This document shows positions 4,084 to 38,692 of a stretch of 52,374 bases of DNA, in pieces. This stretch comes from a virus. Every line of letters starts with the position of its first letter. Position 1 is the first letter of the stretch. Below the pieces are notes generated by a model that was not told the DNA's origin, searched no databases, and was given only the letters and a program-made list of their open reading frames with translations. The position numbers were made by a program, and so were the translations under genes. The stretch covers positions 1-52,374 of the IMG/VR virus record IMGVR_UViG_3300028364_000046; one strand, given 5' to 3'.

Positions 4084-5430
4084 ATGTCTTTGAGTTATCG
4101 ATCGACGCAGGTAATGGCCCCTAGTTTGGCTCCTACCACTTCTGCTGCGGGAACCACTTATGATGTTGTTACACGCAGACTAAATTTGGATGGCCAACCG
4201 TCGTCCTTTAGCCCAGTGCAGGAAAGCAATCTACCTGCAACTATTACGCCTCAATTTTACTTACTTACAGCAGACTATTCAGCAGACCAGGTGTTGGTAT
4301 CAAGCAATTCAGGTATCACTTGGAGAATAGTTCCCGGTCAAACAAAGGGTGCGCAAGTTGTTCCCGCGTTTGACACAAGTTGGGTTGAGGCCACCAACAT
4401 AGACACCCAAGACTCCGTAACTACGGGTATAAACTTTGGTTCTTTTGGAGCTCTCACAAGTCCCACTAAAAGCTTCTTTATCGTAAACACGGGCAACCCT
4501 GTCCAGAGCCTTACATATTCGTTCATTAATCAGGTTACCAACCAGGTTGCGTCTGAATATTCGGGCCTGATTCAGATTGCTATAGATGGGGTTTTTAGCG
4601 CTTCTGGAAACCTTCCAAGTACAATCTATAACAACCTTTTGCTGTGGTCTAATGCCTCCGGAAGTCTAAACACACAAAGGCTTTTGTTGGCTTCTGGACA
4701 GTTTGTTAAGTTGACTGTTAGCTTTGTTAATTTTCCTATTGGTGGAATCAATTCACAGGAGTTAAACCTGAGTTTTCAGGCCGTTGCCAACCAGACAACA
4801 ATTGCACTAGGGTTAGCCAATAGTTGGCCAGATAATACACTTGAAATAGACTACCAGTCTTGGACTCCAGATATACTTGTAGGTAATTCTGCGGGCTCGA
4901 TTATTGTTAAGCCATTTTTAGCACGCGTGAGTGGTGTACTTGTGGTTAACTATTTTAACAGGACAATAAGCCTAGGTGGTAACTCAGTTGAAAGGTGGAT
5001 ATTTGTTAATAGTCTAGGTGTTATAAAAGCGGCCACCTCACTTGCTGATGCAAACGCGGGTGGACTGGTGTTGGGTAGGGTAGAATCACAGGAAAGCTCT
5101 ACGCTGGCTGGGTTGGATTACCTGTATTCTGTTAAGCCCCAGGTGTGGTTAAAGCAGCCTGGTAGCCTGGCCGTGGGGTTATTTGCAGCAATTGCCACAG
5201 GTGACCTGGAGGTAGCCGTAACAGTGCTTGCGGCCGCTGGAGTGACGTTTGGGAATGGCTTGCTTGCGGTTTCTGGGCTGGCTTGGGTGGTTGCTGGTGA
5301 GGAGCTAAGTAAGGGTGACCTGATAGCACCTGGCACTGGCGGTAAGGCTTTTGTTGCAAGCGGCACAAAGTCAGGTGTCTGCCTGCTAGGTGCCGCGATT
5401 GACAAACCTGCGTTGATTACACTCACATAG
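4084..5430 (+). CDS. Probable virion structural protein (tail fibre/decoration-like C-terminus)
   Basis: A 448-aa protein rich in Ser, Thr, Asn and Val with alternating hydrophobic residues, typical of beta-rich fibre or baseplate proteins. The ATG at 4084 is chosen over an upstream in-frame TTG at 4069. The last ~60 residues contain LSKGDLIAPGTGGKA followed by a V-A-S-G-x-K-S-G-V stretch. This resembles the short beta domain of phage decoration proteins (DUF2190-like: GDLV...G.A...A.....GVA). I take this as weak evidence for a surface-exposed structural role. It is the last gene of the plus-strand tail cluster. Its stop codon is followed directly by a long hairpin (5431-5517) that could end transcription. 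Confidence 0.55.
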   Translation: MSLSYRSTQVMAPSLAPTTSAAGTTYDVVTRRLNLDGQPSSFSPVQESNLPATITPQFYLLTADYSADQVLVSSNSGITWRIVPGQTKGAQVVPAFDTSWVEATNIDTQDSVTTGINFGSFGALTSPTKSFFIVNTGNPVQSLTYSFINQVTNQVASEYSGLIQIAIDGVFSASGNLPSTIYNNLLLWSNASGSLNTQRLLLASGQFVKLTVSFVNFPIGGINSQELNLSFQAVANQTTIALGLANSWPDNTLEIDYQSWTPDILVGNSAGSIIVKPFLARVSGVLVVNYFNRTISLGGNSVERWIFVNSLGVIKAATSLADANAGGLVLGRVESQESSTLAGLDYLYSVKPQVWLKQPGSLAVGLFAAIATGDLEVAVTVLAAAGVTFGNGLLAVSGLAWVVAGEELSKGDLIAPGTGGKAFVASGTKSGVCLLGAAIDKPALITLT

Positions 5431-5517
5431 GGCGTCCTGTGGGGCTGTTTAAGGCCTGCTGAGTTGGTTAGATTGGGTAACCTAAGTAAACCAACTCAGC
5501 AAGCCTCTATGGGCGCC
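5431..5517. repeat. Long hairpin element H1 (dispersed family)
   Basis: The arms AGGCCTGCTGAGTTGGTT and AACCAACTCAGCAAGCCT pair over 18 bp with one mismatch. Outer GGCG.../...CGCC bases add to the stem. The loop (about 19 nt) holds its own small inverted repeat (GGGTAACCT). The AGGCTTGCT/AGCAAGCCT half-sites define the family found at nine other places in the window. It lies directly after the stop of the 4084 gene, so a terminator role is possible, but there is no clean T-tract. Confidence 0.75.
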
Positions 5518-5581
5518 ACAAGTATGCCCTAGGCCTCTGGTTGGCATCTCCTAGTTGCACTTAAAGGTTATGGTGATAAAA

Positions 5582-5935
5582 ATGGCTGCTAAGAAAGTTT
5601 CAATAAGCTTGCCTGAGGATACTCTGGAGCAGATTATTTCGTACGCAAAAACAAAGGGCATTTCTGTTGTTTCAGAAGCTGTTCTAGATTTGATTAGGCT
5701 AGGTCTGGCTTACCCTGCAGAAGCCCGTAGGTACAACTTGAACGACTTCTTTGAGTACGCTGGGAAGGAGTATAGAGACGCTGATAATGCACGAATTGAA
5801 TTTACTAAGCATGTGGAATTTGGTGTAGAGTCTTGGCAAGTTGTTGTTACTGAGAATGGCCAAGAGCTGTTCAGTCAGAAGCTAGGTAGGGAAGAAGGAA
5901 GTGATACCAAGCTGCTGTGGGGCAGCTACAAGTAA
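5582..5935 (+). CDS. Ribbon-helix-helix (CopG/Arc-like) DNA-binding protein
   Basis: A 117-aa protein starting MAAKK. Residues ~3-40 read as a ribbon-helix-helix domain: a beta strand KKVSISLPEDT, then a helix LEQIISYAKTKG, a turn, and a second helix SEAVLDLIRLGL. This is the Arc/CopG fold, which binds DNA as a dimer through the strand pair. The C-terminal ~75 residues form a separate acidic and aromatic domain of unknown type. In-frame starts exist at 5555 (TTG) and 5570 (ATG). I prefer 5582 because the RHH domain begins right after it. It is a lone plus-strand gene between two long hairpins, at the border between tail genes and the minus-strand accessory region, so it may regulate either side. 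Confidence 0.65.
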   Translation: MAAKKVSISLPEDTLEQIISYAKTKGISVVSEAVLDLIRLGLAYPAEARRYNLNDFFEYAGKEYRDADNARIEFTKHVEFGVESWQVVVTENGQELFSQKLGREEGSDTKLLWGSYK

Positions 5936-5936
5936 G

Positions 5937-6025
5937 CCCAGGAGCCGACAAAGGCTTGCTAGCCTAGCAAATAGGGGTTACTATAGGGTAGCCGCCCAGC
6001 AAGCCTCTATCGGCCTCCAGGAGCT
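5937..6025. repeat. Long hairpin element H2 (dispersed family)
   Basis: The left arm GGAGCCGACAAAGGCTTGCT pairs with the right arm AGCAAGCCTCTATCGGCCTCC, with a few mismatches and one bulge. The loop contains the core AAATAGGGGTTACTATAGG, which recurs in H3 (reverse complement) and H4. It starts directly after the stop of the ribbon-helix-helix gene. Confidence 0.8.
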
Positions 6026-6098
6026 GCCTAAAAGCCAGTCCGCGTGCACCGGTGTGCTTGCACCCTATACATGAGCGTACGTTCATATACATAGGCAA

Positions 6099-6133
6099 TA
6101 AAAAGCCCACCTAGGTTGCTCTAGGTGGGCTTT
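6099..6133 (-). terminator. Intrinsic terminator of the 6145 gene
   Basis: AAAGCCCACCTAG - gttgct - CTAGGTGGGCTTT is a perfect 13-bp stem with a 6-nt loop. On the minus strand it is followed by a T-rich stretch (TTTTTATTG), and it lies 12 bases beyond the stop of the minus-strand gene. Confidence 0.85.
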
Positions 6134-6144
6134 CTAGTCTGCAC

Positions 6145-6423
6145 TTAGTCAACCATGTTTTCTATGCAGCCCTCACTGAATATCTCGGCGATTGTTACAA
6201 GTTCAGCCTTGGCTTCTTTGAGAGTCTTGAATTCTGTCTGGTCAAAATCGTAATCGGAGTGCTGTTCTCCGGATATGCACCATACACTTGGGCCCTCGTT
6301 AACAATGTAGAATTCGTAAGGGCGCTGAACTGAAGTGCTTCCCCACCAGTTTGCGGAAACTGTATAACACCCTGCGGATGTTCTCTTGACTGAAGTAGCT
6401 GGAATAAAAGTAACGTTTGTCAT
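6145..6423 (-). CDS. Small paralogous protein, family B member 1 (unknown function)
   Basis: A 92-aa protein starting MTNVTFIP. The C-terminal ~60 residues match two other proteins of this region (12036-12257 and 13846-14067). The shared pattern is Y-x-(F/H/Y)-Y-(I/V/L)-(V/I)-(N/K)...(V/M)-W-(C/S/A)-I, then an acidic segment, then (E/H)-F-(K/N/Q)-T-L-(K/E)-E-A. I read this as a small beta sheet followed by a helix. I do not recognise the family. Longer in-frame starts exist upstream, but they would run through the promoter cassette. The start at 6423 (or MGM at 6429) places the gene just behind that cassette, as in its neighbours. The cassette is specific to the accessory region, so the gene is probably expressed alone. 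Confidence 0.6.
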   Translation of the reverse strand: MTNVTFIPATSVKRTSAGCYTVSANWWGSTSVQRPYEFYIVNEGPSVWCISGEQHSDYDFDQTEFKTLKEAKAELVTIAEIFSEGCIENMVD

Positions 6424-6429
6424 GCCCAT

Positions 6430-6510
6430 TGTTTTGTCCGGTGTGTTTGATATTCCTAATATGACCTGTACCCCAGGGAATGTAATTAGTAAATACACTT
6501 AACTTTGAAT
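6430..6510 (-). promoter_or_regulatory. Promoter cassette P1 for the 6145 gene
   Basis: On the minus strand this holds the conserved block AGTTAAGTGTATTTACT, then a -10-like GTCATATTAGG, then CAAACACACC before the start codon. The same order of blocks recurs upstream of most minus-strand genes up to 13.5 kb. Confidence 0.6.
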
Positions 6511-6652
6511 TTAGGCCCCTTACACGCGTGCATGCATATGTGAGGGCGTGCATATGCGAGGGCGTGCTTGAGGGCAGGCATGCATACGTGAGGGCGTGCT
6601 TGTGGGTGGACTGGGGGATCAGCAGGAGGCATACGGTGGAAGGCTTTCAGGT

Positions 6653-6746
6653 GGCTCCTGGACGGCCATAGAGGCTTGCTGGTTGGCCAGCCTATAGTAA
6701 CCCCTATTTGCTAGGCTGGCAAGCCTCTATGGCCGTCCAGGAGCCA
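6653..6746. repeat. Long hairpin element H3, inverted core
   Basis: Perfect 27-bp outer arms run from 6653 (GGCTCCTGGACGGCC...) to the mirror sequence ending at 6746. An inner GCCAGCC/GGCTGGC pair lies within. The core reads CCTATAGTAACCCCTATTT, the reverse complement of the core in H2 and H4. It lies in the gene-free stretch 6424-7041, which otherwise holds H4 and terminator-like hairpins. Confidence 0.85.
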
Positions 6747-6785
6747 GGGAGGCTTGCTGGGATAGGCTAGGGCAGGCTTTCAGGT

Positions 6786-6876
6786 GGCTCCTGGAGGCCG
6801 ATAGAGGCTTGCTGGTTGGCAAATAGGGGTTACTATAGGCTGGCCAACCAGCAAGCCTCTATGGCCGTCCAGGAGC
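6786..6876. repeat. Long hairpin element H4
   Basis: Nearly perfect 34-bp arms run from GCTCCTGGAGGCCGATAGAG to the mirror CTCTATGGCCGTCCAGGAGC. The loop holds AAATAGGGGTTACTATAGG. The arms are closely related to those of H3, only about 40 bases away, so the pair forms a tandem duplication with oppositely oriented cores. Confidence 0.85.
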
Positions 6877-6962
6877 TGCTGAGGCAGGCCTATGCATGTG
6901 GGTCCGTGGACCTGCTGGATGGTAGTCGAGTATGAGCGTATGTTCATATGTCTAGGCAAAAT

Positions 6963-7033
6963 AAAGCCCACCCAGATTTCTCCAGGCGGGCAGGGATTAT
7001 TTAGGCGGGCCCAGATTTCTCCAGGCGGGCAGG
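6963..7033 (-). terminator. Duplicated terminator-like hairpins after the 7042 gene
   Basis: The plus strand reads GCCCACCCAGATTTCTCCAGGCGGGC and then a second near-identical copy with the arms GCGGGCCCAGATTTCTCCAGGCGGGC. On the minus strand the distal copy ends in TTTATTTT, which fits an intrinsic terminator. The stem has a few mismatches. The element has been duplicated within 40 bases. Confidence 0.6.
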
Positions 7034-7041
7034 GCCAGGGG

Positions 7042-7992
7042 TTAGTTGGCTAGGTAGGCTTGGATGCATTCTCTGCCTGTCTCAGCGGCCACCTGGTAGG
7101 CTGTGGCTGCTTGCTTGTATACTTGGGGATTGGTTAGCAACCAGTCGGCTATCATGATGGCTGGGGAGAATACTTGGCCGGGCTTAGTCTCGGCTAGGAT
7201 GTACTTGAATCGGCTGGCGGACTGGATGGTCAGGGGCTGCCTAGGTAACTTTCTTGAAGCCAGGACTACAAGCTGATTGAATACTTTTTCGCCGATGTTG
7301 ATTGAGTGAACTTCTTCAATCATATTTCTGATTGCCTGGCGGTTGATTACCTGGCGCCCTGGGTCTGAGCAAGTTTCGGACGTCACACTTATCAGGCTTT
7401 CTAATAGCTCTCTTTGCTCAGCACTTAGGGTGTGCAACTCCTCATATACTTTCTTGGGTGCTTTTGCCTTAGGTGTTTTCTTAGGCGTCTTTGTAGTGGC
7501 CTCAGGCGTGGCCTCAGGTGTAGCCTCAGGTGTAGCCTCAGGTGTCTCAGGTGTGGCCTCAGGTGTCTCAGGTGTGGCCTCAGGTGTCTCAACAGCAGGC
7601 TCAGGTGTGGCCTCAGGTGTCTCAACAGCAGGCTCAGGTGTGGCCTCAGGTGTGGGGCCGTTAATGAAGCCACGCTTGGATTCTTTTACTTTTACTTTAG
7701 GTGTCTCAGGAGTAGGCTTGGGCATTTCTACAGGCGTCTCAGGGGCAGGCTCTTGGGTAGGCTTGGGCATTTCTACAGGCGTCTCAGGGGCAGGCTCAGG
7801 AGTAGGCTCGGGCATTTCTACAGGCGTCTCAGGGGCAGGCTCAGGAGTAGGCTCAAGTGTGGCTTCAAGCATTACAACTAGTTGGGCTTTCGTTGCTTTC
7901 CAGGCGCCGGGAATTTTCATCTCCTGGGCAATGGGTCTCATCTGGGCAGCAGTCATAGTGGAGATTTGAGTAGCAGTTAGTGGGTTAGTCAT
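7042..7992 (-). CDS. Rho-N/SAP-like N-terminal domain with Pro-Glu-Thr repeats and unknown C-terminal domain
   Basis: A 316-aa protein in three parts. Residues ~1-47 (from MTNPLTATQ) form a helical domain with A-x-E-M-x-I-P-x-A-W-x-A-T-K-A-Q-L, like Rho-N/SAP-type nucleic-acid-binding modules; it is shared with the 9123, 10533 and 11208 proteins. Residues ~48-175 are low-complexity repeats of PEPTPEPAPETPVEM and PEATPE units, probably an extended linker. Residues ~176-316 form a globular, helix-rich domain found nowhere else in the window. The DNA repeats are nearly exact, so repeat number probably varies between relatives. The gene has its own promoter cassette. I infer a nucleic-acid-associated role from the N-terminal domain only. 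Confidence 0.6.
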   Translation of the reverse strand: MTNPLTATQISTMTAAQMRPIAQEMKIPGAWKATKAQLVVMLEATLEPTPEPAPETPVEMPEPTPEPAPETPVEMPKPTQEPAPETPVEMPKPTPETPKVKVKESKRGFINGPTPEATPEPAVETPEATPEPAVETPEATPETPEATPETPEATPEATPEATPEATTKTPKKTPKAKAPKKVYEELHTLSAEQRELLESLISVTSETCSDPGRQVINRQAIRNMIEEVHSINIGEKVFNQLVVLASRKLPRQPLTIQSASRFKYILAETKPGQVFSPAIMIADWLLTNPQVYKQAATAYQVAAETGRECIQAYLAN

Positions 7993-8090
7993 TTAAGTTT
8001 CGGTGTGGTTTGTTTGCTTGACTCTTTTAATATGACACGTTGCTGGAGGTAATGTAACCGGTGAATATACTTAACTCCCCGGGTTGGGCT
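7993..8090 (-). promoter_or_regulatory. Promoter cassette P2 for the 7042 gene
   Basis: The minus-strand order is AGTTAAGTATATTCACCGG, then -10 CATATT (8029-8034), then AAAAGAGTCAAGCAAACAAA, then the start codon preceded by ACTTAA. The remaining gene-free stretch, to 8356, is filled with repeats of the GGGGATCAGCC and GGCTTGCAGG type (see the intergenic repeat entry). Confidence 0.65.
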
Positions 8091-8356
8091 CCTTATATGT
8101 ATGCATGCATGAGAGGGTGCGTGGGTAAGCATGCTGGGGATCAGCCTAAAGGTATGCCACCAAAGGCTTGCAGGCTTGCTGGGGATCAGCCTGAGGGCAT
8201 GCTTACAGGTGGGGCTAGGGCATGCATGCGAGGGTGCGTGGCTGGGCAGGCTTGTGGGCTGGCTGGAGGCTTGTTGGTGGCCTGGCTAAGGGTTTGCATA
8301 GCCAAGCCGGCCGGGGTGCCTTAAAGGCTGTCGTGAGCCCGGCTGGGCTCGCTTGG

Positions 8357-8776
8357 CTAGGATGCTAGGGCAGCTTGGTAGTGGGCAATCAATTCAGCTT
8401 TTCTCAAAAGTCTTTTGCCATCTTTCAGTGGGATGTCCAGGGCTTTTACCAACGCGGGCAATTTCAGGTCGGTTACTTTCCACGCCCCAAAATCTACAGG
8501 CACCTCTTCAAGTTGTTCTACTTTAGGTTGTTGTACTTCAGGCACCTCTTCAAGTTGTTGTTGTTGTACTTCAGGCTGGACTTCAGGTTGTTCTACTTCA
8601 GGTTGTTGTTGTTGTACTTCAGGCTGGACTTCAGGTTGTTGTTGTTGTACTTCAGGCTGGGCGAGGTCATGTGAGGCAACAAAGACAATGAACGATATTG
8701 AGACGAATAATGCACCGCCGTATAATGTGCCAGTTAGAAGAGTAGTAAGAACGTTGTCGAGAATTTGGTAAGTCAT
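8357..8776 (-). CDS. Membrane-anchored protein with Gln/Glu repeats and C-terminal Rho-N/SAP-like domain
   Basis: A 139-aa protein. Residues ~12-34 form one hydrophobic segment (LLTGTLYGGALFVSISFIVF), likely a membrane anchor. Residues ~40-92 are low-complexity PEVQQQQ/PEVQ/LEEVP repeats. Residues ~93-139 are a Rho-N/SAP-like helical domain (W-K-V-T-D-L-K-L-P-A-L, then LRKAELIAHY). The domain resembles the N-terminal domain of the neighbouring proteins but is placed at the C-terminus. A membrane anchor joined by a flexible linker to a nucleic-acid-binding-type module could tether DNA or RNA to the membrane; that is inference. It has its own promoter cassette. Confidence 0.6.
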   Translation of the reverse strand: MTYQILDNVLTTLLTGTLYGGALFVSISFIVFVASHDLAQPEVQQQQPEVQPEVQQQQPEVEQPEVQPEVQQQQLEEVPEVQQPKVEQLEEVPVDFGAWKVTDLKLPALVKALDIPLKDGKRLLRKAELIAHYQAALAS

Positions 8777-8865
8777 GAAGTTGTTTGTTTGTGTTTGACT
8801 CTTCTAATATGGCCTATCCTCCAGGGAATGTAACTAGTAAATACACTTAACTTTAGAAATGGCTC
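8777..8865 (-). promoter_or_regulatory. Promoter cassette P3 for the 8357 gene
   Basis: This is a minus-strand copy of the cassette with AGTTAAGTGTATTTACTAGTT, -10-like CATATTAGAAGAG, and CAAACACAAACAAAC before the start codon. Confidence 0.6.
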
Positions 8866-9122
8866 CTTATATGTATGCATGCATACGCGAGGGCGTGGGT
8901 AAGTGGGCTGGGGATCAGCCTAAAGGTATGCCACCAAAGGCTTCCAGGCTTGCTGGGGATCAGCTTGCAGGCTTGCTGGAGGCTGGGGATCAGCATGCGT
9001 GTGAGGGCGTGGGTAAGCGGGCGGGCTGGGCAGGCTTGTGGGCTGGCTGGAGGCTGATAGAGGCCTCCTAATTGGTTGGCTTGGCTTATGCCAGGCTTCT
9101 TAATTAGCAGGCCTCCGTGGGC

Positions 9123-9593
9123 CTACAGGCTGATGTTAGGCACGGAGAAGCTAATCCCAAGTGCATTCACTTTTCGGTCGAATTTCATGCTAGAAGCGGC
9201 GCCCTTAACATCTTTCCAAACACTTGTAAACAACTCTTTGTTATCTTTCTTGTTTACATCGAACTGTAACGATACCCGACTAATCCGGCCGGCAGTGAGC
9301 AACGTAGGTGTATTACGCAGGCTGTAGAATTCCACACTTACGTCAGGGAGGCCTTGACTTCTTAGCTGGTGGTTAAGTGCAATCACTTGGGCAGGGTATA
9401 AGCCAATCAGGACATCTTCAAGTGTCTCATAGCTAGACTCTATGGTGGGCTCATCCATGGCGTTAAGAACTTCTTTTACATCGTCTGCAGTAACCGCCCA
9501 GAGTTCAGGCATTTGAAGCTCTTTAGCAACTTCAAGTAATTGGTATCTAGAAAGGGAATCGATTTGAGTAGCTGTGAGATTTAGGTTAGTCAT
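9123..9593 (-). CDS. Family A paralogue 1: Rho-N/SAP-like domain plus family A domain
   Basis: A 156-aa protein. Residues ~1-48 are the helical Rho-N/SAP-like domain (A-K-E-L-x-M-P-x-L-W-x-V-T). Next comes the family A region: LNHQLRSQGLP near residues 74-84, YSLRNTP near 90-96, then F-D-V-N-K-K-D-N-K-E-L-F-x2-V-W-x2-V, and a closing FSVPNISL. The same order occurs in 9887-10225 (without the N-terminal domain), 10533-11003, 11208-11693 and 21089-21433. I do not know this family. The strong pattern conservation with divergent DNA suggests selection on the proteins. Its promoter cassette has lost about 21 bases including the -10 box, so it may be silent or read from upstream. Confidence 0.65.
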   Translation of the reverse strand: MTNLNLTATQIDSLSRYQLLEVAKELQMPELWAVTADDVKEVLNAMDEPTIESSYETLEDVLIGLYPAQVIALNHQLRSQGLPDVSVEFYSLRNTPTLLTAGRISRVSLQFDVNKKDNKELFTSVWKDVKGAASSMKFDRKVNALGISFSVPNISL

Positions 9594-9660
9594 TTAAGTT
9601 TCGGTTGGGTTGTTTGTGTTTGCCGGAAGTAAAAGCGGTGTATCTACTTAACTTTTGAAA
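9594..9660 (-). promoter_or_regulatory. Decayed promoter cassette P4 (lacks -10 block)
   Basis: Flanking parts of the cassette are present (TTTAAGTTTCGG, then TTGCCGGAAGT, then GTGTATCTACTTAACTT on the plus strand). The block that holds the -10 in other copies (GACTCTTTTAGTATGACCTGT) is absent, as if cleanly deleted. The rest of the spacer to 9886 holds only intergenic repeats. Confidence 0.6.
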
Positions 9661-9886
9661 TTTGTTTGGGCTCCCTTATATATGCACGTGGGCAGGCGTG
9701 GAGGCATATTTGAGGGCGTGCTTGTGGGCGGACTGGGGATCAGCCTGAAGGTATACGGGGCAAGGGTTTCAGGCTTTCTGGGGATCGGCTGGAAAGCTTA
9801 CTGGTGAGGGCTGGAAGGTATACGGGGCAAGGCTTTGGGCTTAGGGGCATGCCAACCAGGAGGCTGGAAGGCATGCCCCGTAAGGG

Positions 9887-10225
9887 TTAGAAGTCGATTC
9901 TAGTTACCCGGTAGGTGATTTCCATGGCGTTGATTTTAGAATTAAATTCCATCTTTGCAGAAGTATGCTGGATGTTTTCCCACACATCTTCGAACAACGC
10001 GGAATTATTCACATTGTTCACGGTGAACACTAAGTCCAACGAACAGATTCTGGCTTTGCCTGCCCGTGTTTCTACCCTAGGTGTGGCGGCCAGCCTGTAG
10101 TTGGCCATGTAGAAAGACCCAGCACTGAACGTAGGCAGTCCAATCTCATTCAACGTCTGGTTCAACACCATCAGTTGCAGTGCGTCCAGGTTTCTCATGA
10201 CTTGATTTAAGGTGACAAAATTCAT
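9887..10225 (-). CDS. Family A paralogue 2, short form without Rho-N/SAP-like domain
   Basis: A 112-aa protein that consists only of the family A region: LNQTLNEIGLP near residues 22-32, YRLAATP near 43-49, F-T-V-N-N-V-N-N-S-A-L-F-x2-V-W-x2-I, and the closing segment YRVTRIDF. It lacks the N-terminal helical domain of its neighbours, so the family A region can stand alone. The start ATG lies directly behind promoter cassette P5. Function is unknown. Confidence 0.65.
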   Translation of the reverse strand: MNFVTLNQVMRNLDALQLMVLNQTLNEIGLPTFSAGSFYMANYRLAATPRVETRAGKARICSLDLVFTVNNVNNSALFEDVWENIQHTSAKMEFNSKINAMEITYRVTRIDF

Positions 10226-10325
10226 TTTGAAGTTTCTCGGTAGGTTTGTTTGCTTGACTCTTTTAGTATGACCTGTTGCCGGAAGAATAGAACCAGTAAA
10301 TACACCTAACTTTCAGAATTGGTTC
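10226..10325 (-). promoter_or_regulatory. Promoter cassette P5 for the 9887 gene
   Basis: A full copy: on the minus strand AAGTTAGGTGTATTTACTGGTT, then GGCAACAGGTCATACTAAAAGAGTC split at the -10 CATACT, then AAGCAAACAAACC. The gap from here to 10532 holds hairpin H5 and intergenic repeats only. Confidence 0.65.
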
Positions 10326-10440
10326 TTTATATGTATGCACGTGTGTATGCGAGGGCATGTGGAGGCTGACTGGGGGTATGCGTGGCAAGGCTTTCAGGCT
10401 GGGCGGGGATCAGCCAGAAGTTGGTTGGAGGCGTGTCCTG

Positions 10441-10516
10441 GAGGCCATTTAAGGCTTGCTAATCGGCCAGGTGGGTTTATACCAGCCAATCGGATTAGCA
10501 AGCCTTAAATGGCCTC
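10441..10516. repeat. Long hairpin element H5
   Basis: Perfect 24-bp arms, GAGGCCATTTAAGGCTTGCT... and the mirror ...AGCAAGCCTTAAATGGCCTC. The inner region has a second pair, CCAGGTGG/CCAGCC. It lies just beyond the stop codon of the minus-strand 10533 gene and could act as its terminator, although no T-tract follows. Confidence 0.85.
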
Positions 10517-10532
10517 TGGGAGGCCGGTGAGC

Positions 10533-11003
10533 TTACAGGCGGATATTGGGCACGGAGAACTTAATTTCTAAGGATTGGGTGGCGTTATTGAATTTAATTC
10601 CGTTGTAGGAGGAAGCGTATCGTACCAATACATTTTCGTAAGTGACCAAATCCTGCTTTTGGCTGACGTGGAAGGTTAGAGAAATCTGTTCTACTTCTTG
10701 GCCGTAGAGTCCCAAACGCAGGCGGGGCTTGGCTCTCAGGCTGTAGTACTCTTCGCAAACTTTTGGCAAACCTTGAGTTTCTAGCTGGCGGTTGAGGTCC
10801 ATGATTTGGGTAATAAGCATGCCATCCAAGACTGTTGTAATGGAAGTGGTGTCCACCTCAATGTTGAATTCAGGGCGTGCCTTAAGTGCTTCACTTAGCT
10901 GCTCTTTTGTCACGTTCCAGGCACTTGGTATGCCTAGCTTTTGGGCAAGAGTCATCATCTGAAAAGTGGTCATGTTATTGATTAGGGATTGGAGGTTGGC
11001 CAT
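10533..11003 (-). CDS. Family A paralogue 3: Rho-N/SAP-like domain plus family A domain
   Basis: A 156-aa protein. Residues ~1-45 carry the helical domain (A-Q-K-L-G-I-P-S-A-W-N-V-T-K-E-Q-L). The family A region follows: LNRQLETQGLP, YSLRAKP, then F-H-V-S-Q-K-Q-D and the closing FSVPNIRL. The usual L-F-x2-V-W is here replaced by T-Y-E-N-V-L, so this copy has diverged. Only the first bases of the promoter cassette remain upstream (TTTAATTTCTCGGTGTG), followed directly by intergenic repeat. Expression may depend on read-through from the 11208 gene, 204 bases upstream on the same strand. Confidence 0.65.
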   Translation of the reverse strand: MANLQSLINNMTTFQMMTLAQKLGIPSAWNVTKEQLSEALKARPEFNIEVDTTSITTVLDGMLITQIMDLNRQLETQGLPKVCEEYYSLRAKPRLRLGLYGQEVEQISLTFHVSQKQDLVTYENVLVRYASSYNGIKFNNATQSLEIKFSVPNIRL

Positions 11004-11207
11004 TTAATTTCTCGGTGTGTATACGGGCATGCGTGGTGTGGGCTGGGGATCAGTGGAAGGTATGCCACCAAAGGCTTACAGGCAGCCTGAGCAAGCCCGG
11101 GACTGGCCTGGAGGCTTGCTGGAGGCTGGGCAGCCTAGCGGCCTCAAGCAGCCTGTAGGGGCCTCAGGCAGCCTGAGCAGCCTGAGGCTTTCTGAGGCTG
11201 CGTAGAA

Positions 11208-11693
11208 TTACAGGTGGATGTCAGGAACTCGGAAGTTCACTTGGGCGTTGCCTACTACTTTGCTGAAGTTGGCTCCGCGAGAAGCGCCCCTCACTTTGGA
11301 CCATACTTGGTCAAATAGCTTTCTGTCTTCTCCTTGGTTGACTTTGAACAGCAGGCTGACACACTTAATTTGAGGCCCGTGTGCTTTGAATTCCACACTT
11401 GGCTCAGCACGCAGACTGAAGTTGCCGATGAACAATCCGCCGCGGAAGATGGCAGGCAGGCCGCGGGCTTCCAGCTGTTGGTTTAACTCCCACACTTGGG
11501 CTTCACTTAGGTGTCTCATAACCTTGTCCAGGCTGTCCAGGTCAATCGACGACTGGAACTTGGGGTTGGCGTTGACGGCCTGCATGACCTGCGCCTTGCT
11601 GCACTCCCAGGGGTTGGGCATACCTAGCTCTTCGGCCAGGGCGTTCAGATTTCTCGAGGACATGGAGTTGATTTGGGATTTGAGGTTAATCAT
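11208..11693 (-). CDS. Family A paralogue 4: Rho-N/SAP-like domain plus family A domain
   Basis: A 161-aa protein. Residues ~1-45 are the helical domain (A-E-E-L-G-M-P-N-P-W-E-C-S-K-A-Q-V). The family A region has LNQQLEARGLP, FSLRAEP, F-K-V-N-Q-G-E-D-R-K-L-F-D-Q-V-W-S-K-V and the closing FRVPDIHL. Its closing motif is closest to that of the plus-strand copy at 21089-21433 (LRVPDIQL). It has a complete promoter cassette (P7), and downstream lies the promoter-less copy at 10533. Function is unknown; the N-terminal domain suggests nucleic-acid contact. Confidence 0.65.
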   Translation of the reverse strand: MINLKSQINSMSSRNLNALAEELGMPNPWECSKAQVMQAVNANPKFQSSIDLDSLDKVMRHLSEAQVWELNQQLEARGLPAIFRGGLFIGNFSLRAEPSVEFKAHGPQIKCVSLLFKVNQGEDRKLFDQVWSKVRGASRGANFSKVVGNAQVNFRVPDIHL

Positions 11694-11795
11694 TTAAGTT
11701 TCTCGGTAGGTTTGTTTGCTTGACTCTTTTAGTATGACCTGTTGCCGGAAGTAATAAAGCGGTGTATCTACTTAACTTCTAGAATTTGGCCTCTT
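11694..11795 (-). promoter_or_regulatory. Promoter cassette P7 for the 11208 gene
   Basis: Complete copy with AGTTAAGTAGATACACCGC, a GGCAACAGGT block, -10 CATACT, AAAAGAGTCAAGCAAACAAA, and GAGAAACTTAA before the start codon (all minus strand). It is followed at 11797-11819 by a (TG)n run of about 11 units and then by intergenic repeats up to 12035. Confidence 0.7.
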
Positions 11796-11796
11796 A

Positions 11797-11819
11797 TGTG
11801 TGTGTGTGTGTGTGTGTGT
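11797..11819. repeat. TG dinucleotide microsatellite
   Basis: About 11 uninterrupted TG units lie between promoter cassette P7 and the intergenic repeats. They sit upstream of a minus-strand promoter, so length changes could alter promoter context. Confidence 0.85.
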
Positions 11820-12035
11820 ATATGGGAATGCATGAGTGTATGCATGCATGCGTGTGGGCGTGCTTACAGGTGGGCTGGAAGGCATGCCACCAAAGGCTTC
11901 CAGGCTTGCTGGGGATCAGCCTGAGGGCATGCTTACAGGTGGGCTAGGGGTATGCCACCAAAGGCTTCCAGGCTTGCTGGGGATCAGCCTGAGTGGAATG
12001 CCAACCAGAAGGCTGGAAGGCATGCCACGCAAGGA

Positions 12036-12257
12036 TTACATGCTGTTTAGGGCGTGCTTAACTAGGCAAGCACAGGCTTCTTCGAGAGTATTAAAATGGG
12101 TCTGAGGCATGTTGGGGAACTCTTCATATTCGTTACAGATACTCCAGACATCATTACTTTTTATTACGTAATGGCCATAAGCAAATTCATTATCATTTAT
12201 AAACATCTCGTAGCACTGGTAAGAGGTGAGTTCGAAAGTGGCTTTGAAGTTAATCAT
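12036..12257 (-). CDS. Small paralogous protein, family B member 2 (unknown function)
   Basis: A 73-aa protein starting MINFKATFELTSY. It shares with 6145-6423 and 13846-14067 the order Y-(aromatic or His)-(Y/V)-(V/L/I)-I-K-x-(N/D)-(D/G)-(V/M)-W-(S/A)-I, an acidic stretch, then (H/E)-F-(N/Q)-T-L-(E/K)-E-A and a closing helix. It contains four cysteines. No membrane segment or known catalytic motif is visible. A complete promoter cassette lies directly upstream. Family unknown; likely a small soluble accessory protein. Confidence 0.6.
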   Translation of the reverse strand: MINFKATFELTSYQCYEMFINDNEFAYGHYVIKSNDVWSICNEYEEFPNMPQTHFNTLEEACACLVKHALNSM

Positions 12258-12350
12258 TTAATTTCTCGGTTGGGTTTGTTTGCTTGACTCTTTTAATATG
12301 ACCTGAATTCTGGGGAATAAAATCAGTAAATGTACTTAACTTTGGTTGAT
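12258..12350 (-). promoter_or_regulatory. Promoter cassette P8 for the 12036 gene
   Basis: Minus strand: AAAGTTAAGTACATTTACTG, -10 CATATT, AAAAGAGTCAAGCAAACAAA, then CCGAGAAATTAA before the start. Confidence 0.65.
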
Positions 12351-12430
12351 CCCCAGAATTTGTATGTGGGTGTTTATACCAGGCCCAGGCATGCCAGCCA
12401 GAGGGCTGGAAGGCATGCCAGGCAAGGGTT

Positions 12431-12610
12431 CTAGCCGTTTCCTTGGAGTTGGTCAATCACATCTTGGAGTCTGAGATTCATACTCATAATCTCATTTAAG
12501 TAGCCCTTAGAATCAGGCAACTTTTCCAACTCTTTAATAGACTTCTGAATGGTGGCCACCTTATTGGCGAAGGTAATGATTTGAATTGCTTGGGCTTCTT
12601 TATTAGTCAT
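12431..12610 (-). CDS. Small coiled-coil protein (59 aa), unknown function
   Basis: A 59-aa protein starting MTNKEAQAIQ and ending LQDVIDQLQGNG. It is entirely helical in character, with leucine/isoleucine spacing that suggests a coiled coil. The start is supported by a complete promoter cassette immediately upstream and by the MTN start shared with the 6145, 7042 and 9123 proteins. It weakly resembles the 61-aa protein at 13270-13455 in size and helical pattern. No function can be assigned. Confidence 0.6.
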   Translation of the reverse strand: MTNKEAQAIQIITFANKVATIQKSIKELEKLPDSKGYLNEIMSMNLRLQDVIDQLQGNG

Positions 12611-12705
12611 TTAAGTTTCTCGGTAGGTTTGTTTGCTTGACTCTTTTAATATGACCTGTATCCGGAATTAATAAAGCAGTAAATACACCTAACTTCTAGA
12701 ATTTG
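12611..12705 (-). promoter_or_regulatory. Promoter cassette P9 for the 12431 gene
   Basis: Complete copy: AAGTTAGGTGTATTTACTGC, -10 CATATT, AAAAGAGTCAAGCAAACAAA, then GAGAAACTTAA before the start codon (minus strand). Confidence 0.65.
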
Positions 12706-12809
12706 TTTGGGGCTCTTATATATATGTATATGCATGCCTGCGCGTAAGGGGATCAGTCCAAAGGCATACGGTGCAAGGCTTTTAGGCACTCTGGGGATCA
12801 GCCAAAATC

Positions 12810-13020
12810 TAGCCGGGGATCAGCCCAAATTTTTATGAATATAGCCGGGGATCAGCCCGAATTTTTATGAATATTAAAAAGTCTGCCTACTAAACTTTAT
12901 GCATACTCTGAGTTGGAATACTAAACTTTATGCGTATTCATACTTTTTCATGAGCGTGCTTCCACATGAACGTATGAGCATACATCCACATGAACGTATG
13001 AGTGTGCTTTCACATGAGCG
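12810..13020. repeat. Cluster of short tandem repeats
   Basis: Three tandem sets follow one another. GCCGGGGATCAGCCC + AATTTTTATGAATAT occurs twice (about 12812-12875). ACTAAACTTTATGC(A/G)TA occurs twice (about 12888-12940). CACATGA(A/G)CGTATGAGxxTxC units occur at about 12962-13022. The stretch carries no convincing gene and is more AT-rich than its surroundings. Confidence 0.65.
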
Positions 13021-13024
13021 TGGA

Positions 13025-13205
13025 TTCACTATTTGGTAGCCCGGCCGGCCCCATACACGCTCATACGTTCATGTATTCATGCTTTTAAGAAGCCTGAACG
13101 TATGAGCGTGCGTTCATGTATTCTTAATTGCAAAAGGGTACTATATAACCATATAGCTATATGGCAATATAATTGTGCGGCAATATAACCATATAGCTAT
13201 ATAGC
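13025..13205. repeat. Left arm of a long inverted repeat flanking the 13270 gene
   Basis: It contains CACTATTTGGTAGCCC, a block with CATACGTTCATGTATTCATG and CTTTTAAGAAGCCTGAACG, and CCATATAGCTATATGG (a perfect 16-bp palindrome at 13149-13164). The same blocks occur in reverse order and complement at 13565-13745. Together they enclose one AT-rich gene and its promoter. Confidence 0.7.
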
Positions 13206-13269
13206 AATTAAGTTTTAGAACGGAAATCCAACCAAAAAAGTTGATTGGTTGAATTCCAGTTCCCTAATT

Positions 13270-13455
13270 TTAATTTTCCATTTGTTCTAGAATTTTTTCG
13301 AGTTTTTTATTCAAATCCAAAAGTTTAGAAACATTTTCCCAAGAAATTGGCAAATCTTTTGAGATATTTAATAAAACTCTGGCTTTTAGAATTTTATCTT
13401 CCAAATCTCTAAGTAAATTTGCTTGAGCAAGTTTTTGTGTTTTTTCGTCGTACAT
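13270..13455 (-). CDS. AT-rich small coiled-coil protein inside an inverted-repeat-bounded segment
   Basis: A 61-aa protein starting MYDEKTQKLAQ and ending LEKILEQMEN. It is Lys/Leu/Glu-rich with heptad-like spacing, so a coiled coil is likely. Its codons are clearly more AT-rich than those of the surrounding genes (many AAA, TTT, ATT, TTA), which suggests a different origin. It is enclosed by long inverted repeats (13025-13205 and 13565-13745). A promoter cassette with the best -10 of the set (TATAAT) lies directly upstream. No function recognised; no transposase signature is present. Confidence 0.6.
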   Translation of the reverse strand: MYDEKTQKLAQANLLRDLEDKILKARVLLNISKDLPISWENVSKLLDLNKKLEKILEQMEN

Positions 13456-13545
13456 CTTAAGAAGTCTCGTGATTTGTTTGCTTGACCTTTTTATTATAAC
13501 GGAATAAAGTCTGAAGTGTACCAGTAAATATACTTAACTTTTAGA
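13456..13545 (-). promoter_or_regulatory. Promoter cassette P10, with possible divergent promoter
   Basis: Minus strand: AGTTAAGTATATTTACTGGT, -10 TATAAT, AAAAAGGTCAAGCAAACAAA. On the plus strand the conserved block reads AAATATACTTAACTT, which itself resembles a -10 (TATACT), so the cassette could fire in both directions. Confidence 0.6.
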
Positions 13546-13564
13546 ATTGAATACATAACCACAT

Positions 13565-13745
13565 AACCATACAACTATATGGCTATATTGCTATATTGCT
13601 ATATGGTTATATGAGCGTGCGTTCAGGCTTCTTAAAAGCATGAATACATGAACGTATGGACGTGCTTAGGGTGGCCCGGGGCTACTTTTAATAAGCATGA
13701 ATACATGAGCGTGCTTGAGGGGCTTGTGGGCTACCAAATAGTGGT
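13565..13745. repeat. Right arm of a long inverted repeat flanking the 13270 gene
   Basis: Contains CTATATGGTTATATG, GCGTTCAGGCTTCTTAAAAG with CATGAATACATGAACGTATG, and GGGCTACCAAATAGTG. These are the reverse complement of blocks in 13025-13205 and lie in mirror order. The arm is imperfect (insertions and a partial internal duplication of the TAAGCATGAATACATGAGCG block). Confidence 0.7.
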
Positions 13746-13750
13746 CTTGT

Positions 13751-13826
13751 GGCGTCCACGGAGGCTTGCTAAGTGGTTTACTGGTGTAATGCCTATTGAC
13801 GGGTTTAGCAAGCCTTAATGGACGAC
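13751..13826. repeat. Hairpin element H6
   Basis: AGGCTTGCTAA pairs with TTAGCAAGCCT, with partial outer pairing (GTCCA/TGGAC). The loop is longer and less paired than in H3-H5. It lies beyond the stop of the minus-strand 13846 gene. Confidence 0.65.
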
Positions 13827-13845
13827 GGGGAAGCCTTAGGTGGAT

Positions 13846-14067
13846 TTATAGGCCGCTTTCGTAACTCTGCGCAAACTGGATAAGCCGTCTTTTAGCTTCT
13901 TTAAGTGTTTGGAATTCACTTTCATATAAATGGTCAATTTCAAACTCGTTACTGTCTATGGCCCACATACCATCGTTCTTAATTAGGTAGTAGGGAAAGG
14001 GGTCTTCGTTGTAGTTGATGTACAGGTAGTAACAACTAGCGTAAGTAAGCCTGAAAGTATAATTCAT
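13846..14067 (-). CDS. Small paralogous protein, family B member 3 (unknown function)
   Basis: A 73-aa protein starting MNYTFRLTYASCYY. It has the family B order: Y-Y-L-I-K-N-D-G-M-W-A-I, an acidic stretch, E-F-Q-T-L-K-E-A and a closing helix. The N-terminal half is rich in Tyr. It is the last member on the right side of the accessory array. Unlike the others its promoter is not a cassette copy but a simple -10 (TATACT) about 30 bases upstream. Function unknown. Confidence 0.6.
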   Translation of the reverse strand: MNYTFRLTYASCYYLYINYNEDPFPYYLIKNDGMWAIDSNEFEIDHLYESEFQTLKEAKRRLIQFAQSYESGL

Positions 14068-14074
14068 TTGAGTG

Positions 14075-14110
14075 CCTGTAAATTACTTCTAAGTATACTT
14101 TGAAAGAGCT
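14075..14110 (-). promoter_or_regulatory. Promoter -10 box for the 13846 gene
   Basis: The minus strand reads AAAGTATACTTAGAAG about 25-35 bases before the start codon. The -10 TATACT is clear; no good -35 is visible. It lies between the stop of the 14122 gene and the 13846 start. Confidence 0.5.
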
Positions 14111-14121
14111 TGTGATATAAC

Positions 14122-16131
14122 CTAGGTATACTTTGCAAGCAACAAAGTCTTCTGTGAGTCAGGCCCACTTTGCGTAACTGTTATGTTGTACACCAGGTAG
14201 CCAGATACATTGCCTAAGTGGTCAGTGTAGCTTATAGACTGGCCTAGGGATGCTGGAAAGAAGTATGAGACAGCCACCTCAATGCTTTGGGCTAGGCTGT
14301 TGTTCTCTTTAAGCGTTCTTGTCCCGTACACTTGGAGTTGGGAAAGAGTGTAACAAAATGGCGCTTCTATGGACTCAGGTACGCCCTCTAGTTGCTCTGC
14401 GGCGGAGTCGGTTATGCTGTCAAAAACCAACGCAGACTTTAGGCCAGGACGAACCCACTTAGAGCCACTTGGGCTTTCTGGAGTTACTACTGCGGGTTGG
14501 ACAATAAATGACTTGTCAGAGTCTGAATAAGCGCCCTCTGAGGTAACTTTGGACCACTCTTGCGTAAATCCCTCAAAAGTACTGGTCTCTTGTGGGTTGC
14601 TTGTAAGTGTAGAAAAGCGCTCGTCAGAAACACCATGCAAGCGGTACACAAAATTGTTATCAAGCTTGTAAGTTTCTTTACGTATTGCCGTAAGGAGGTG
14701 GATATAGTCCTTTACGCATACTTCGTTGTTCACTTGCGGTGTATTTACGTACGTCTCAATAGCGTATTCCAGGTTGCCACTGAATAGTCTCCAAACGCGT
14801 GGGCTGTCTGCGTAGTTGGAATCACTTGAGAGCAGACGGTCAGAAGCTTGGTATTGCTTGCCCACCACCCAAGTTTCTGACTTGCTGACTAGGAAGCTGC
14901 CTGAAGCGTGTGGGTAGTAGCCGAGTGCTAGGGTGGTAGTACTTACAATCTGCCAGGATGTGGGTATGGGAGTCCCGTCACACTGGTCCTCGCTATAGTC
15001 AGCATCTGAGATTACTGAGGCTGTGGGCACGTATCCCATAAGTACTTTTGTTTGGAACACTAGGGTATCACCTATGAAGTGGCTGGTTATGGTGGTCTCC
15101 GTGTAGCCACTTTGGAACCATGGACGTATGTTGGAGGGCAAGCTAGAGACTATTTTAGAGACTTCTATGCGTGGATGCAAACTCTCTAAGATTTCATACT
15201 GGTTGCTAACACGCAGTCTAGGTATGGCCACATAACTGGAGGCTACTTGCGTGTCAACCTCAAGTGTGTTTTGAAAGCTGAGGGGCAAGCTAAAGTTTTC
15301 TAGGTAGTTGGGCCTAGGTATTGCTATAATTCCGCCTGAGGGATTACACCTAACGTCCTGGTTAGTAGGCGCGTAAAGTGCCTGCAAATACTGGTAAGGG
15401 GTTTCAGATGAAAATGTTTGGTCATTGCGGTCAATCAGCTGGTGGCCATTGGGGAATGTACGGGTAAGTAGGCCATTATATTGCGCGTATATTTTTGCTG
15501 CTTGTTGTGCAGTCCTAGGCAATTCCCCGCAATACAGTTTGGTTCTCATTCTTGCTCTTTCGTTGAACAGCGCCAACTCATCACCCAGACTCAGGGTGGC
15601 AGAAAAGTAGCCTGACTCTTCGATCGACAGAATAGGGCTAGCTAGTAAGTAAAGTGAGGCTATGCTGAGTGTTTGAAATAGCTTGGATGTGGCCTGGCTG
15701 GTTGCTGGTAAGGCAAACTGTTGAGTGACTTCAAAGCGTTGTCCAACAGCCAACAAGAAGTCTGGAGGCAGGCCTGTGAGTGATACGTATCCTTCTATGA
15801 GGCCACTTAGGGGGAAGCTAAGTGAAAAGCCATTAACGTACTCACCTAGCTGAAGGTTGTCTGAGGTGCGCGTGAGGCCTACTGACGAAACGGAGGTGGT
15901 TAGATTTAGGCTAGGCTGGGAAGTAAGCCTAGGTAGTCCAGCAAACTGAAAGCCAGCTGATGTAGGGCTTTGGCTTGCTTGGGGTGTAGGTGCGTCTAGT
16001 ATTAGTCCCGCGGGCATACTTAGACTGTCTAGCAGAGTGCCTGTGAAGTTTATACCGCTGTTGGTTTCTAAGGCTGCTAGAAAGGTTAACCCAGGCCTGC
16101 TAGGTGTGTTCCCCGTGAGAGCTAAGGTCAT
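14122..16131 (-). CDS. Large beta-rich protein, possible virion/tail protein on the minus strand
   Basis: A 669-aa protein rich in Ser, Thr, Leu, Pro and aromatic residues. It has many short alternating stretches, few Lys, and no membrane segment or nucleotide-binding motif. The composition is like phage baseplate or fibre proteins, and its codon use matches the plus-strand structural genes. It is separated from those genes by the accessory array and lies on the other strand. A virion role is therefore a guess from composition. I see two segments with similar charge pattern but no clear repeat. Alternatively it may be a secreted or surface enzyme I do not recognise. Confidence 0.5.
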   Translation of the reverse strand: MTLALTGNTPSRPGLTFLAALETNSGINFTGTLLDSLSMPAGLILDAPTPQASQSPTSAGFQFAGLPRLTSQPSLNLTTSVSSVGLTRTSDNLQLGEYVNGFSLSFPLSGLIEGYVSLTGLPPDFLLAVGQRFEVTQQFALPATSQATSKLFQTLSIASLYLLASPILSIEESGYFSATLSLGDELALFNERARMRTKLYCGELPRTAQQAAKIYAQYNGLLTRTFPNGHQLIDRNDQTFSSETPYQYLQALYAPTNQDVRCNPSGGIIAIPRPNYLENFSLPLSFQNTLEVDTQVASSYVAIPRLRVSNQYEILESLHPRIEVSKIVSSLPSNIRPWFQSGYTETTITSHFIGDTLVFQTKVLMGYVPTASVISDADYSEDQCDGTPIPTSWQIVSTTTLALGYYPHASGSFLVSKSETWVVGKQYQASDRLLSSDSNYADSPRVWRLFSGNLEYAIETYVNTPQVNNEVCVKDYIHLLTAIRKETYKLDNNFVYRLHGVSDERFSTLTSNPQETSTFEGFTQEWSKVTSEGAYSDSDKSFIVQPAVVTPESPSGSKWVRPGLKSALVFDSITDSAAEQLEGVPESIEAPFCYTLSQLQVYGTRTLKENNSLAQSIEVAVSYFFPASLGQSISYTDHLGNVSGYLVYNITVTQSGPDSQKTLLLAKYT

Positions 16132-20879: not shown

Positions 20880-21026
20880 CCCAGCCTCCGCAATCCAAGC
20901 ATTCTCAAAGCAGCCCAGCCCACGCAACCCACGCATTCTCAAAGCAGCCCAGCCCAGCCTCCGCAATCCAAGCATTCTCAAAGCAGCCCAGCCCAGCCTC
21001 CGCAATCCAAGCATTCTCAAAGCAGC
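20879..21026. repeat. Tandem repeat array after the ligase gene
   Basis: Four copies of a 34-39-base unit (CCTCCGCAATCCAAGCATTC followed by TCAAAGCAGCCCAGCC). The second copy is diverged, and two later copies have an extra CCCAG. A 66-aa reading frame (20851-21051) runs through it, but it only translates the repeat. Confidence 0.8.
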
Positions 21027-21088: not shown

Positions 21089-21433
21089 ATGTTTGGACTA
21101 TTTCTCAAGACTCTCCCCGCTACGCTTGCAAGCTTACTGGGCACCCAGTCTATTGCACTTAATGAGGCACTTGAAGTTCTCAATCTTCCTTCACTGTACC
21201 CTAGCAGTGAGTATGCGCGACATTACAGTATGCGAGCGACTCCGCAATTTAAGTTCACTTGGAGAGGCCTGAAGCTTAACCGTATTTACCTAAGGTTCCA
21301 AGTAAACGAAAAAGAGGACCCCACGCTATTTGGGTACATCCTGGGACACGTGAAAGGTGCCAAACAAAGCATGCACGTAAACAACGCAGGCATCAAGCAG
21401 ATTGACTTGCGTGTGCCAGATATCCAACTGTAG
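21089..21433 (+). CDS. Family A paralogue 5, short form on the plus strand
   Basis: A 114-aa protein made of the family A region alone: LNEALEVLNLP near residues 24-34, YSMRATP near 46-52, F-Q-V-N-E-K-E-D-P-T-L-F-x2-I-L-x2-V, and the closing LRVPDIQL. It is the only member outside the 6-12 kb array and lies on the other strand among nucleotide metabolism genes, without the promoter cassette. The closing motif is nearest to that of the 11208 protein. It shows that the family is not tied to the array. Hairpin H8 follows directly. Confidence 0.65.
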   Translation: MFGLFLKTLPATLASLLGTQSIALNEALEVLNLPSLYPSSEYARHYSMRATPQFKFTWRGLKLNRIYLRFQVNEKEDPTLFGYILGHVKGAKQSMHVNNAGIKQIDLRVPDIQL

Positions 21434-23266: not shown

Positions 23267-23299
23267 AAGTATAATTAAAATACACTTACGGACAACTAA
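23262..23299 (+). promoter_or_regulatory. Promoter for DHFR-RNR genes
   Basis: TTTAAGTATAATTAAAATACAC carries -10 TATAAT at 23270-23275, 24 bases before the DHFR start codon. No clear -35 is visible. Confidence 0.6.
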
Positions 23300-38622: not shown

Positions 38623-38654
38623 CCCCTAGGCATGATTGCCCACACAGTCCACTC

Positions 38655-38692
38655 CCAAGTATACTCTTAGTAATTACACAGGCATACCTAAA
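38655..38692 (+). promoter_or_regulatory. Promoter for the capsid genes
   Basis: CCCAAGTATACTCTTAGTAA with -10 TATACT at 38660-38665, 28 bases before the scaffold-like gene. The -10 is of the same kind as in the early genes. Confidence 0.55.

Follow-up and report, generated by a model that had tools for sequence, protein, structure and literature searches.

Single-gene units between repeated promoter-like modules: a probable accessory locus in a cyanosiphovirus genome

The window analysed here is IMG/VR record IMGVR_UViG_3300028364_000046 at its full length of 52,374 bases, in which positions 6145-14067 hold eleven consecutive open reading frames (ORFs) on the minus strand, as the initial annotation had stated. 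We propose that this array is probably an accessory (hyperplastic) locus of single-gene units with a dedicated promoter class, in which homologous terminator-promoter modules would double as recombination handles. Nine of the eleven genes are preceded by a box that is found in the array only, each gene is followed by a hairpin, and it is the DNA between the genes, from gene edge to gene edge, that is repeated.

Units of the array and their intergenic modules

The array genes, all on the minus strand, are listed below with the evidence for each.

6145-6429, minus: B1, family B, 94 amino acids (aa) from the chosen ATG (tblastn B1-B3, E 4e-5)
7042-7992, minus: SAPrep, with an N-terminal Rho_N/SAP-like segment, P/E/A-T repeats and a C-terminal domain of no assigned kind (Rho_N E 0.015, below cut-off)
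8357-8776, minus: TMrep, with a single hydrophobic membrane-like segment, PEVQQQQ repeats and a C-terminal helical segment (ORF listing)
9123-9593, minus: A1, SAP-like N-terminus and family A domain (family comparison)
9887-10225, minus: A2, family A domain only (family comparison)
10533-11003, minus: A3, SAP-like N-terminus and family A domain; end of the leader only, no box (family comparison)
11208-11693, minus: A4, SAP-like N-terminus and family A domain (family comparison)
12036-12257, minus: B2, family B (family comparison)
12431-12610, minus: C1, short ORF of 59 aa (ORF listing, codon usage)
13270-13455, minus: C2, short ORF of 61 aa with the weakest coding support (ORF listing)
13846-14067, minus: B3, family B, preceded by a promoter-like sequence without a box (AAGTATACT) and located directly 3' of a virion gene (family comparison)

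The 17-bp box, AGTTARGTNTATTTACT, was found upstream of 9/11 genes. Seven copies differ from AGTTAAGTGTATTTACT by three mismatches or fewer (mean of 0.23 such sites in shuffled genomes), and no other copy occurs elsewhere in the 52 kb; the boxes of A1 and A4 represent a variant shared by the two, with five mismatches. With a weight matrix all nine boxes scored 23-28 bits, as compared with 14.7 bits for the next site in the genome, and one of ten shuffles reached 19.6 bits. Eight boxes are also accompanied by a -10-like element and a conserved A-rich leader that ends at the start codon (GTCATAYTAAAAGAGTCAAGCAAACAAA or a variant). In the alignment of these eight intact cassettes, the box and the -10 element are separated by 24 nt, except in one cassette with 25 nt. 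The leader carries no Shine-Dalgarno sequence, and no sigma-70 consensus pair was found at the cassettes; the -35 element is therefore regarded as missing. The program-made ORF of B1 reaches farther than the gene given above, to a GTG within the box. In the following list the boxes were located by mismatch counts and the weight matrix (those of A1 and A4 by the weight matrix), and the -10-like elements with leaders by alignment.

6488-6504, minus: box of B1 (AGTTAAGTGTATTTACT)
8060-8076, minus: box of SAPrep
8009-8036, minus: -10-like element and leader of SAPrep
8836-8852, minus: box of TMrep
8786-8813, minus: -10-like element and leader of TMrep
9637-9653, minus: box of A1, variant AGTTAAGTAGATACACC
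10295-10311, minus: box of A2
10245-10272, minus: -10-like element and leader of A2
11761-11777, minus: box of A4, variant
11711-11738, minus: -10-like element and leader of A4
12325-12341, minus: box of B2
12275-12302, minus: -10-like element and leader of B2
12678-12694, minus: box of C1
12628-12655, minus: -10-like element and leader of C1
13523-13539, minus: box of C2
13473-13501, minus: TATAAT -10 element and leader of C2

The promoter-like sequence of B3 is of the type TTTCAAAGTATACT, which is also seen before other phage genes (e.g., 23300, 26659, 34071). A relative of the -10 element and leader occurs outside the array at 26613 on the plus strand (TATAATAAAAGAGACAAACAAACACA); the box has no such relative. 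Searches of IMG/VR with the box and leader patterns gave 39 and 112 contigs, respectively, each with a single match and without a second box or a nearby leader, and we consider these matches to be due to chance for that reason. We also noted what looks like a general phage promoter motif, CAAGTATAMT or a near variant, at 14091-14100 (minus strand) and at 23267, 26612, 34030 and 38657 (plus strand); it is often followed by an A/C-rich leader and differs from the array cassette.

A stable hairpin was detected directly 3' of 11/11 array genes (z from -2.1 to -9.0 in the 100-nt flank), as compared with mixed values, from +2.2 to -7.4, for core plus-strand genes. Search of Rfam gave no match. Three genes that are unrelated to each other, A2, B2 and C1, have a 43-bp hairpin block abutting the stop codon, and the following elements are given as examples.

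6100-6133, minus: hairpin and U-run after B1, of canonical intrinsic terminator shape (z -5.6)
10436-10521, minus: long hairpin after A3, with 29-nt arms that are 93% complementary (z -9.0)
9846-9888, minus: hairpin module at the A2 stop codon, 86-88% like its B2 and C1 counterparts (self-comparison)
11995-12037, minus: hairpin module at the B2 stop codon (self-comparison)
12388-12430, minus: hairpin module at the C1 stop codon (self-comparison)
8780-9055, minus: example of a whole intergenic module, 78% identical to 8005-8271 over 280 columns

Self-comparison of the window revealed that the repeated entity is intergenic DNA and not the genes, and that it comprises the hairpin, GATCCCC repeats, the box, the -10 element and the leader. 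The initial annotation had described single-gene units spaced by repeats and hairpins, which agrees with our results; its shared upstream cassette is likewise present on most genes (the box on nine, the -10 element and leader on eight), but the repeated module is not limited to the approximately 90 bases proposed, and the similarity between modules (64-90%) extends over up to 280-380 bp. Positions 7983-8220 and 11684-11949 are 73% identical over 268 columns, 10222-10419 and 12607-12807 are 76% identical over 206 columns, and the A2-A1 and B2-A4 spacers can be aligned from stop codon to start codon (383 columns, 64%). Most alignments of cassettes that precede unrelated genes end between 19 nt before and 10 nt after the start codon. 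Within the array spacers (5400-14200), GCTGATCCCC and AAGCCT/GCATGC are strongly enriched, and GATCCCC occurs 16 times on the minus strand and once on the plus strand.

According to the mechanism that we propose, the 17-bp box would stand in for the -35 element, with the -10 element 24 nt downstream and the A-rich leader after it. We infer that host RNA polymerase starts approximately 7 nt after the -10 element, aided or repressed by a factor bound to the box, and that the hairpin after each gene probably ends or protects the mRNA of that gene. The units would in this way respond as one regulon. Since the modules are repeated and homologous, recombination between them could gain, lose, swap or duplicate single genes and leave the reading frames intact.

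Protein families encoded in the array

Family A has five members, A1-A4 in the array and A5 outside it, and family B comprises B1-B3. The fifth family A gene is not preceded by a box; a 39-bp tandem repeat of 3.9 copies (20878-21026) lies directly upstream of it.

21089-21433, plus: A5, the family A member located outside the array (E 8e-9 with A3 in tblastn)

Both families are recognized as paralogues by tblastn, with pairwise amino-acid identities of 24-36%. Every paralogue pair is more alike at codon position 2 (50-64% identity) than at position 3 (26-41%), and because codon positions 1 and 2 are better conserved than position 3, we regard the A and B genes as old coding paralogues under constraint. 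Codon usage supports the annotated frame in eight genes (B1, SAPrep, TMrep, A1, A3, A4, C1 and B3). It is equivocal for A2 and B2, yet both belong to families, and it does not support coding of C2. No relationship could be demonstrated between the C1 and C2 ORFs.

The initial annotation had described a few protein families that look mixed and matched. Families A and B and an N-terminal segment common to four proteins bear this out in part, including the occurrence of the family A domain with (A1, A3, A4) or without (A2) the SAP-like N-terminus. The Rho-N/SAP assignment itself is below threshold: the common segment gives a weak Pfam Rho_N signal (E 0.015-0.12) of 12.8-15.7 bits vs. a gathering cut-off of 24.9. 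A C-terminal Rho-N/SAP-like domain, which had been claimed as well, was dropped for TMrep (8357-8776), as it was unsupported on re-comparison.

The AlphaFold model of family A (pLDDT 81) shows a helical N-terminus followed by a helix-strand-strand-helix-strand-strand domain, and that of family B (pLDDT 84) a four-stranded sheet with one C-terminal helix. A fold search with these models gave no significant neighbour in PDB (A and B) or BFVD (A only), and the array proteins had no match of weight in Pfam, PHROG, PDB or BFVD and no PADLOC match at E 0.1. Coding constraint, which the initial annotation had proposed to follow in homologues from phage metagenomes, is evident here between paralogues, but homologues were found neither in IMG/VR (families A and B) nor in INPHARED (families A and B, SAPrep) or PLSDB (A4), and a search of Acaryochloris phage A-HIS1 with the family A profile gave none either. 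An anti-defence or host-takeover role of the array proteins is possible; it would be reasonable for loci of this type, and nothing specific points to it here.

PEATPE-like repeats occur both in SAPrep (7042-7992) and in 38636-39271, which immediately precedes the likely major capsid gene, and SAPrep may have borrowed its repeats or be virion-linked. Another repeat of the genome, a 135-bp tandem repeat of about six copies (44442-45306) within gene 44156-45796, probably encodes a domain that is repeated in a tail or fibre-like protein.

Origin of the modules and control of the box

Several results weigh against the reading of the array as independent units exchanged by way of their modules. Most of the array hairpins lack a U-run, the textbook shape of a hairpin with a T-run being found for B1 and SAPrep (7042-7992) only, and termination is uncertain for this reason. 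Some units are not independent, given that A1 has kept its box and lost the -10/leader core by deletion, and A3 has neither box nor -10 element and retains the last approximately 20 nt of the leader. None of three related contigs in IMG/VR (L009, L010 and L128) reaches the array region, so that shuffling of genes between genomes is not seen. Finally, cassette likeness partly follows the genes: it is 80% within a gene family vs. 66% between families (label-shuffle p 0.02), and whole-unit duplication has thus contributed at times.

This last result, together with the paralogy within families A and B and the above-average likeness of the A-family cassettes (78-90%), speaks for tandem duplication of whole units, gene and cassette, with the genes then diverging under arms-race selection and a regulator holding the cassettes alike; the initial annotation had suggested cassette duplication followed by divergence. 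As the general account of the array we find it unlikely. Cassettes that are most similar also stand before unrelated genes (A4-C1 and A2-C1, 88% each; B1-TMrep, 76%), most neighbouring genes share no homology, and the spacer repeats upstream of the box, which have no obvious regulatory role, are 70-98% alike too. Since the closest pairs also join unrelated genes and homology stops at the gene edges, the modules appear to have a history apart from that of the genes, by exchange, homogenisation or maintenance under selection. With cassettes that are 78-90% alike next to genes whose synonymous positions are near saturation, selection or homogenisation is needed. We infer that recombinational exchange between modules would explain both their spread and their sharp edges at the codons.

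The intergenic repeats could also be selfish REP- or MITE-like insertions in which promoter-like sequence is incidental, as the GATCCCC/AAGCCT repeats and the GC-rich hairpins occur at high density and with a strand bias, mainly in the array spacers. We give this explanation little credit: homology that stops at the start codons of unrelated genes and the fixed spacing from box to -10 element suit selection on expression, a 20-mer of the spacer repeat is present in none of the GTDB genomes searched, and no transposase was noted in the array. An integron-like cassette array was considered and rejected, because the units carry promoter-like modules of their own, contrary to promoterless integron cassettes; no integrase was noted on reading the ORFs of the window by eye, and no dedicated search was made.

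As to the factor that would bind the box, a known host regulator (RpaB acting at HLR1, NtcA or Pho) would tie the array to the light, nitrogen or phosphate state of the host. The position of the box, at about -53 to -37, is close to those of activators, RpaB being reported to activate from about -45 to -66 (PMC13421787). Half matches to the NtcA site slightly exceed those in column shuffles (p 0.045), and T4-like cyanophages have numerous NtcA sites (PMC3037559). Motif tests nevertheless led us to reject all three as the identity of the box. The match to HLR1 (KTTACAWWNNKTTACAWW, consensus from PMC11633204) is no better than in shuffles (p 0.23), and no Pho site was found (p 0.77 for CTTAN7CTTA and 0.19 for the tandem 8-bp form). 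The full NtcA pattern GTAN8TAC is present in no box (best within-box match 5/6; it occurs in full only once, upstream of the TMrep box), and its p value of 0.045 fails once the number of motifs tried is counted. Control by any of these regulators is judged improbable. The box shows no more dyad symmetry than expected by chance (5/8 at best, p 0.05).

A phage-encoded protein might act on the box instead. Convergent to the end of the array lies a small gene, which we name as a speculative candidate for the array regulator.

5585-5935, plus: small protein in which a ribbon-helix-helix domain is weakly indicated (RHH_5, E 0.07, below cut-off)

In the most far-reaching version, to which we lend only limited weight, the array would be a phage-dedicated regulon: a phage-encoded activator or repressor (e.g., the 5585-5935 product) would act on the box to fire a whole set of single-gene units that are interchangeable and encode new protein families targeting the cyanobacterial host, and the modules would serve as the platform for their exchange.

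Genome context and comparison with known systems

The ends of the record overlap by 271 bases with 97% identity, which indicates a genome that is close to complete and circularly assembled. TerL is 45% identical to that of A-HIS1 (FN436268); the polymerase is of the PolG-like type found in A-HIS1/A-HIS2, S-TIM5, S-CBWM1 and Mic1 and is 31-34% identical to that of A-HIS1; and the product of gene 14122-16131, which adjoins the array upstream, is 28% identical to an A-HIS1 virion protein. From these three matches we assign the phage to a sparsely sampled lineage of cyanosiphoviruses. The record represents a near-complete cyanosiphovirus genome of approximately 52 kb, and A-HIS1 is its closest described relative, a distant one. 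TerL and polymerase also led to the three IMG/VR contigs mentioned above, of which L009 is the same phage (99.98%) and L010 and L128 share about 72% DNA identity with it. The latter two (IMG/VR 3300035698) are contigs of one relative from one sample (TerL 89% and polymerase 83% aa identity), and the array region would fall in the missing middle of that relative. A terminase profile gave no match in the GTDB genomes.

A-HIS1 has repeated promoter modules of its own, several of them flush with start codons, and a run of small hypothetical ORFs in the corresponding place downstream of the homologous virion gene. Its modules use different motifs, however, and are scattered rather than arrayed. Nine copies of ACCATATGATAAACG were found there (two mismatches or fewer; none in shuffles), for instance at 20952, 29631, 39048, 42326 and 49210. 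Several immediately precede virion genes, among them that of the putative major head protein, and the set looks like a phage-specific late promoter class. The motif TTGACA-N18-GCATACTAAG precedes A-HIS1 ORFans in two clear copies (26134, 28032) and a weaker third (34126), and blast-similar modules were noted near 46486 and 47716.

The initial annotation knew of no described system of this form, which is too strong a statement, as three described types of repeat are similar in kind. The first are the PeSLs of T4-type phages, composite promoter-terminator motifs that are said to mediate modular shuffling, with homologous recombination as the proposed route (Arbiol 2010 and Comeau 2014, as cited through PMC4503421). 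As far as that secondary account describes PeSLs, they resemble our modules in that a stem-loop and a promoter recur between the individual small genes of a plastic region. A stem-loop 3' of the upstream gene is present here for 11/11 genes, and copies are many among lineage-specific small genes (nine boxes in 8 kb, with no gene homologues found). As to an early sigma-70 promoter in the module, eight units have a -10-like element at fixed spacing, with no -35 element or sigma-70 consensus pair. Our modules, unlike PeSLs as cited, are also longer (about 170-380 bp) and contain a 17-bp box specific to the array, and the phage itself, judged from TerL, polymerase and virion protein, belongs to the A-HIS1 lineage and not to the T4-type myoviruses. 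We do not classify the array as PeSLs because the phage is not T4-type, the -35 element is absent and exchange between genomes is a prediction here. The same source describes the 'ORFanage' of S-PM2, which like the array is a block of small cyanophage genes without known function, apparently dispensable in culture; it differs in having few PeSL-like elements, and a repeated cassette for each gene is not described for it (PMC4503421).

The SAS/ESAS elements of cluster K mycobacteriophages are similar in that one repeated regulatory sequence, with a part near the start codon, precedes many small siphovirus genes; they also include a conserved inverted repeat or promoter, and one of them stands before the gene for gp91, the most toxic Adephagia protein (PMC11373665). 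In contrast to the array, ESAS has SigA-like -35 and -10 elements, and the array units are in addition closed by hairpins. The SAS pattern GGGATAGGAGCCC, at 3-9 bp before start codons, gave three matches with two mismatches in the genome, none of them before array genes; with a chance mean of 0.85 and 6/100 shuffles reaching three, there is no enrichment. Halovirus HF2 has two classes of repeated intergenic sequences, and 9/9 cloned repeats had promoter activity (PMC8707807). These are promoter-bearing intergenic repeats, a role that we predict for the array modules as well, although HF2 is an archaeal virus with archaeal promoters, repeats of 29-58 bp and very long transcripts (PMC8707807).

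The layout is thus known in kind from T4-like phages and, as far as we found, has not been described for this cyanophage group. The array represents a sequence-based case, outside the T4-type phages, of an accessory locus in which copies of a control module alternate with exchangeable genes. The box may serve as a handle: for any gene that it precedes in a related phage, membership of this regulon would be predicted, and unknown genes for host interaction might in this way be found by their control module instead of by their own sequence.

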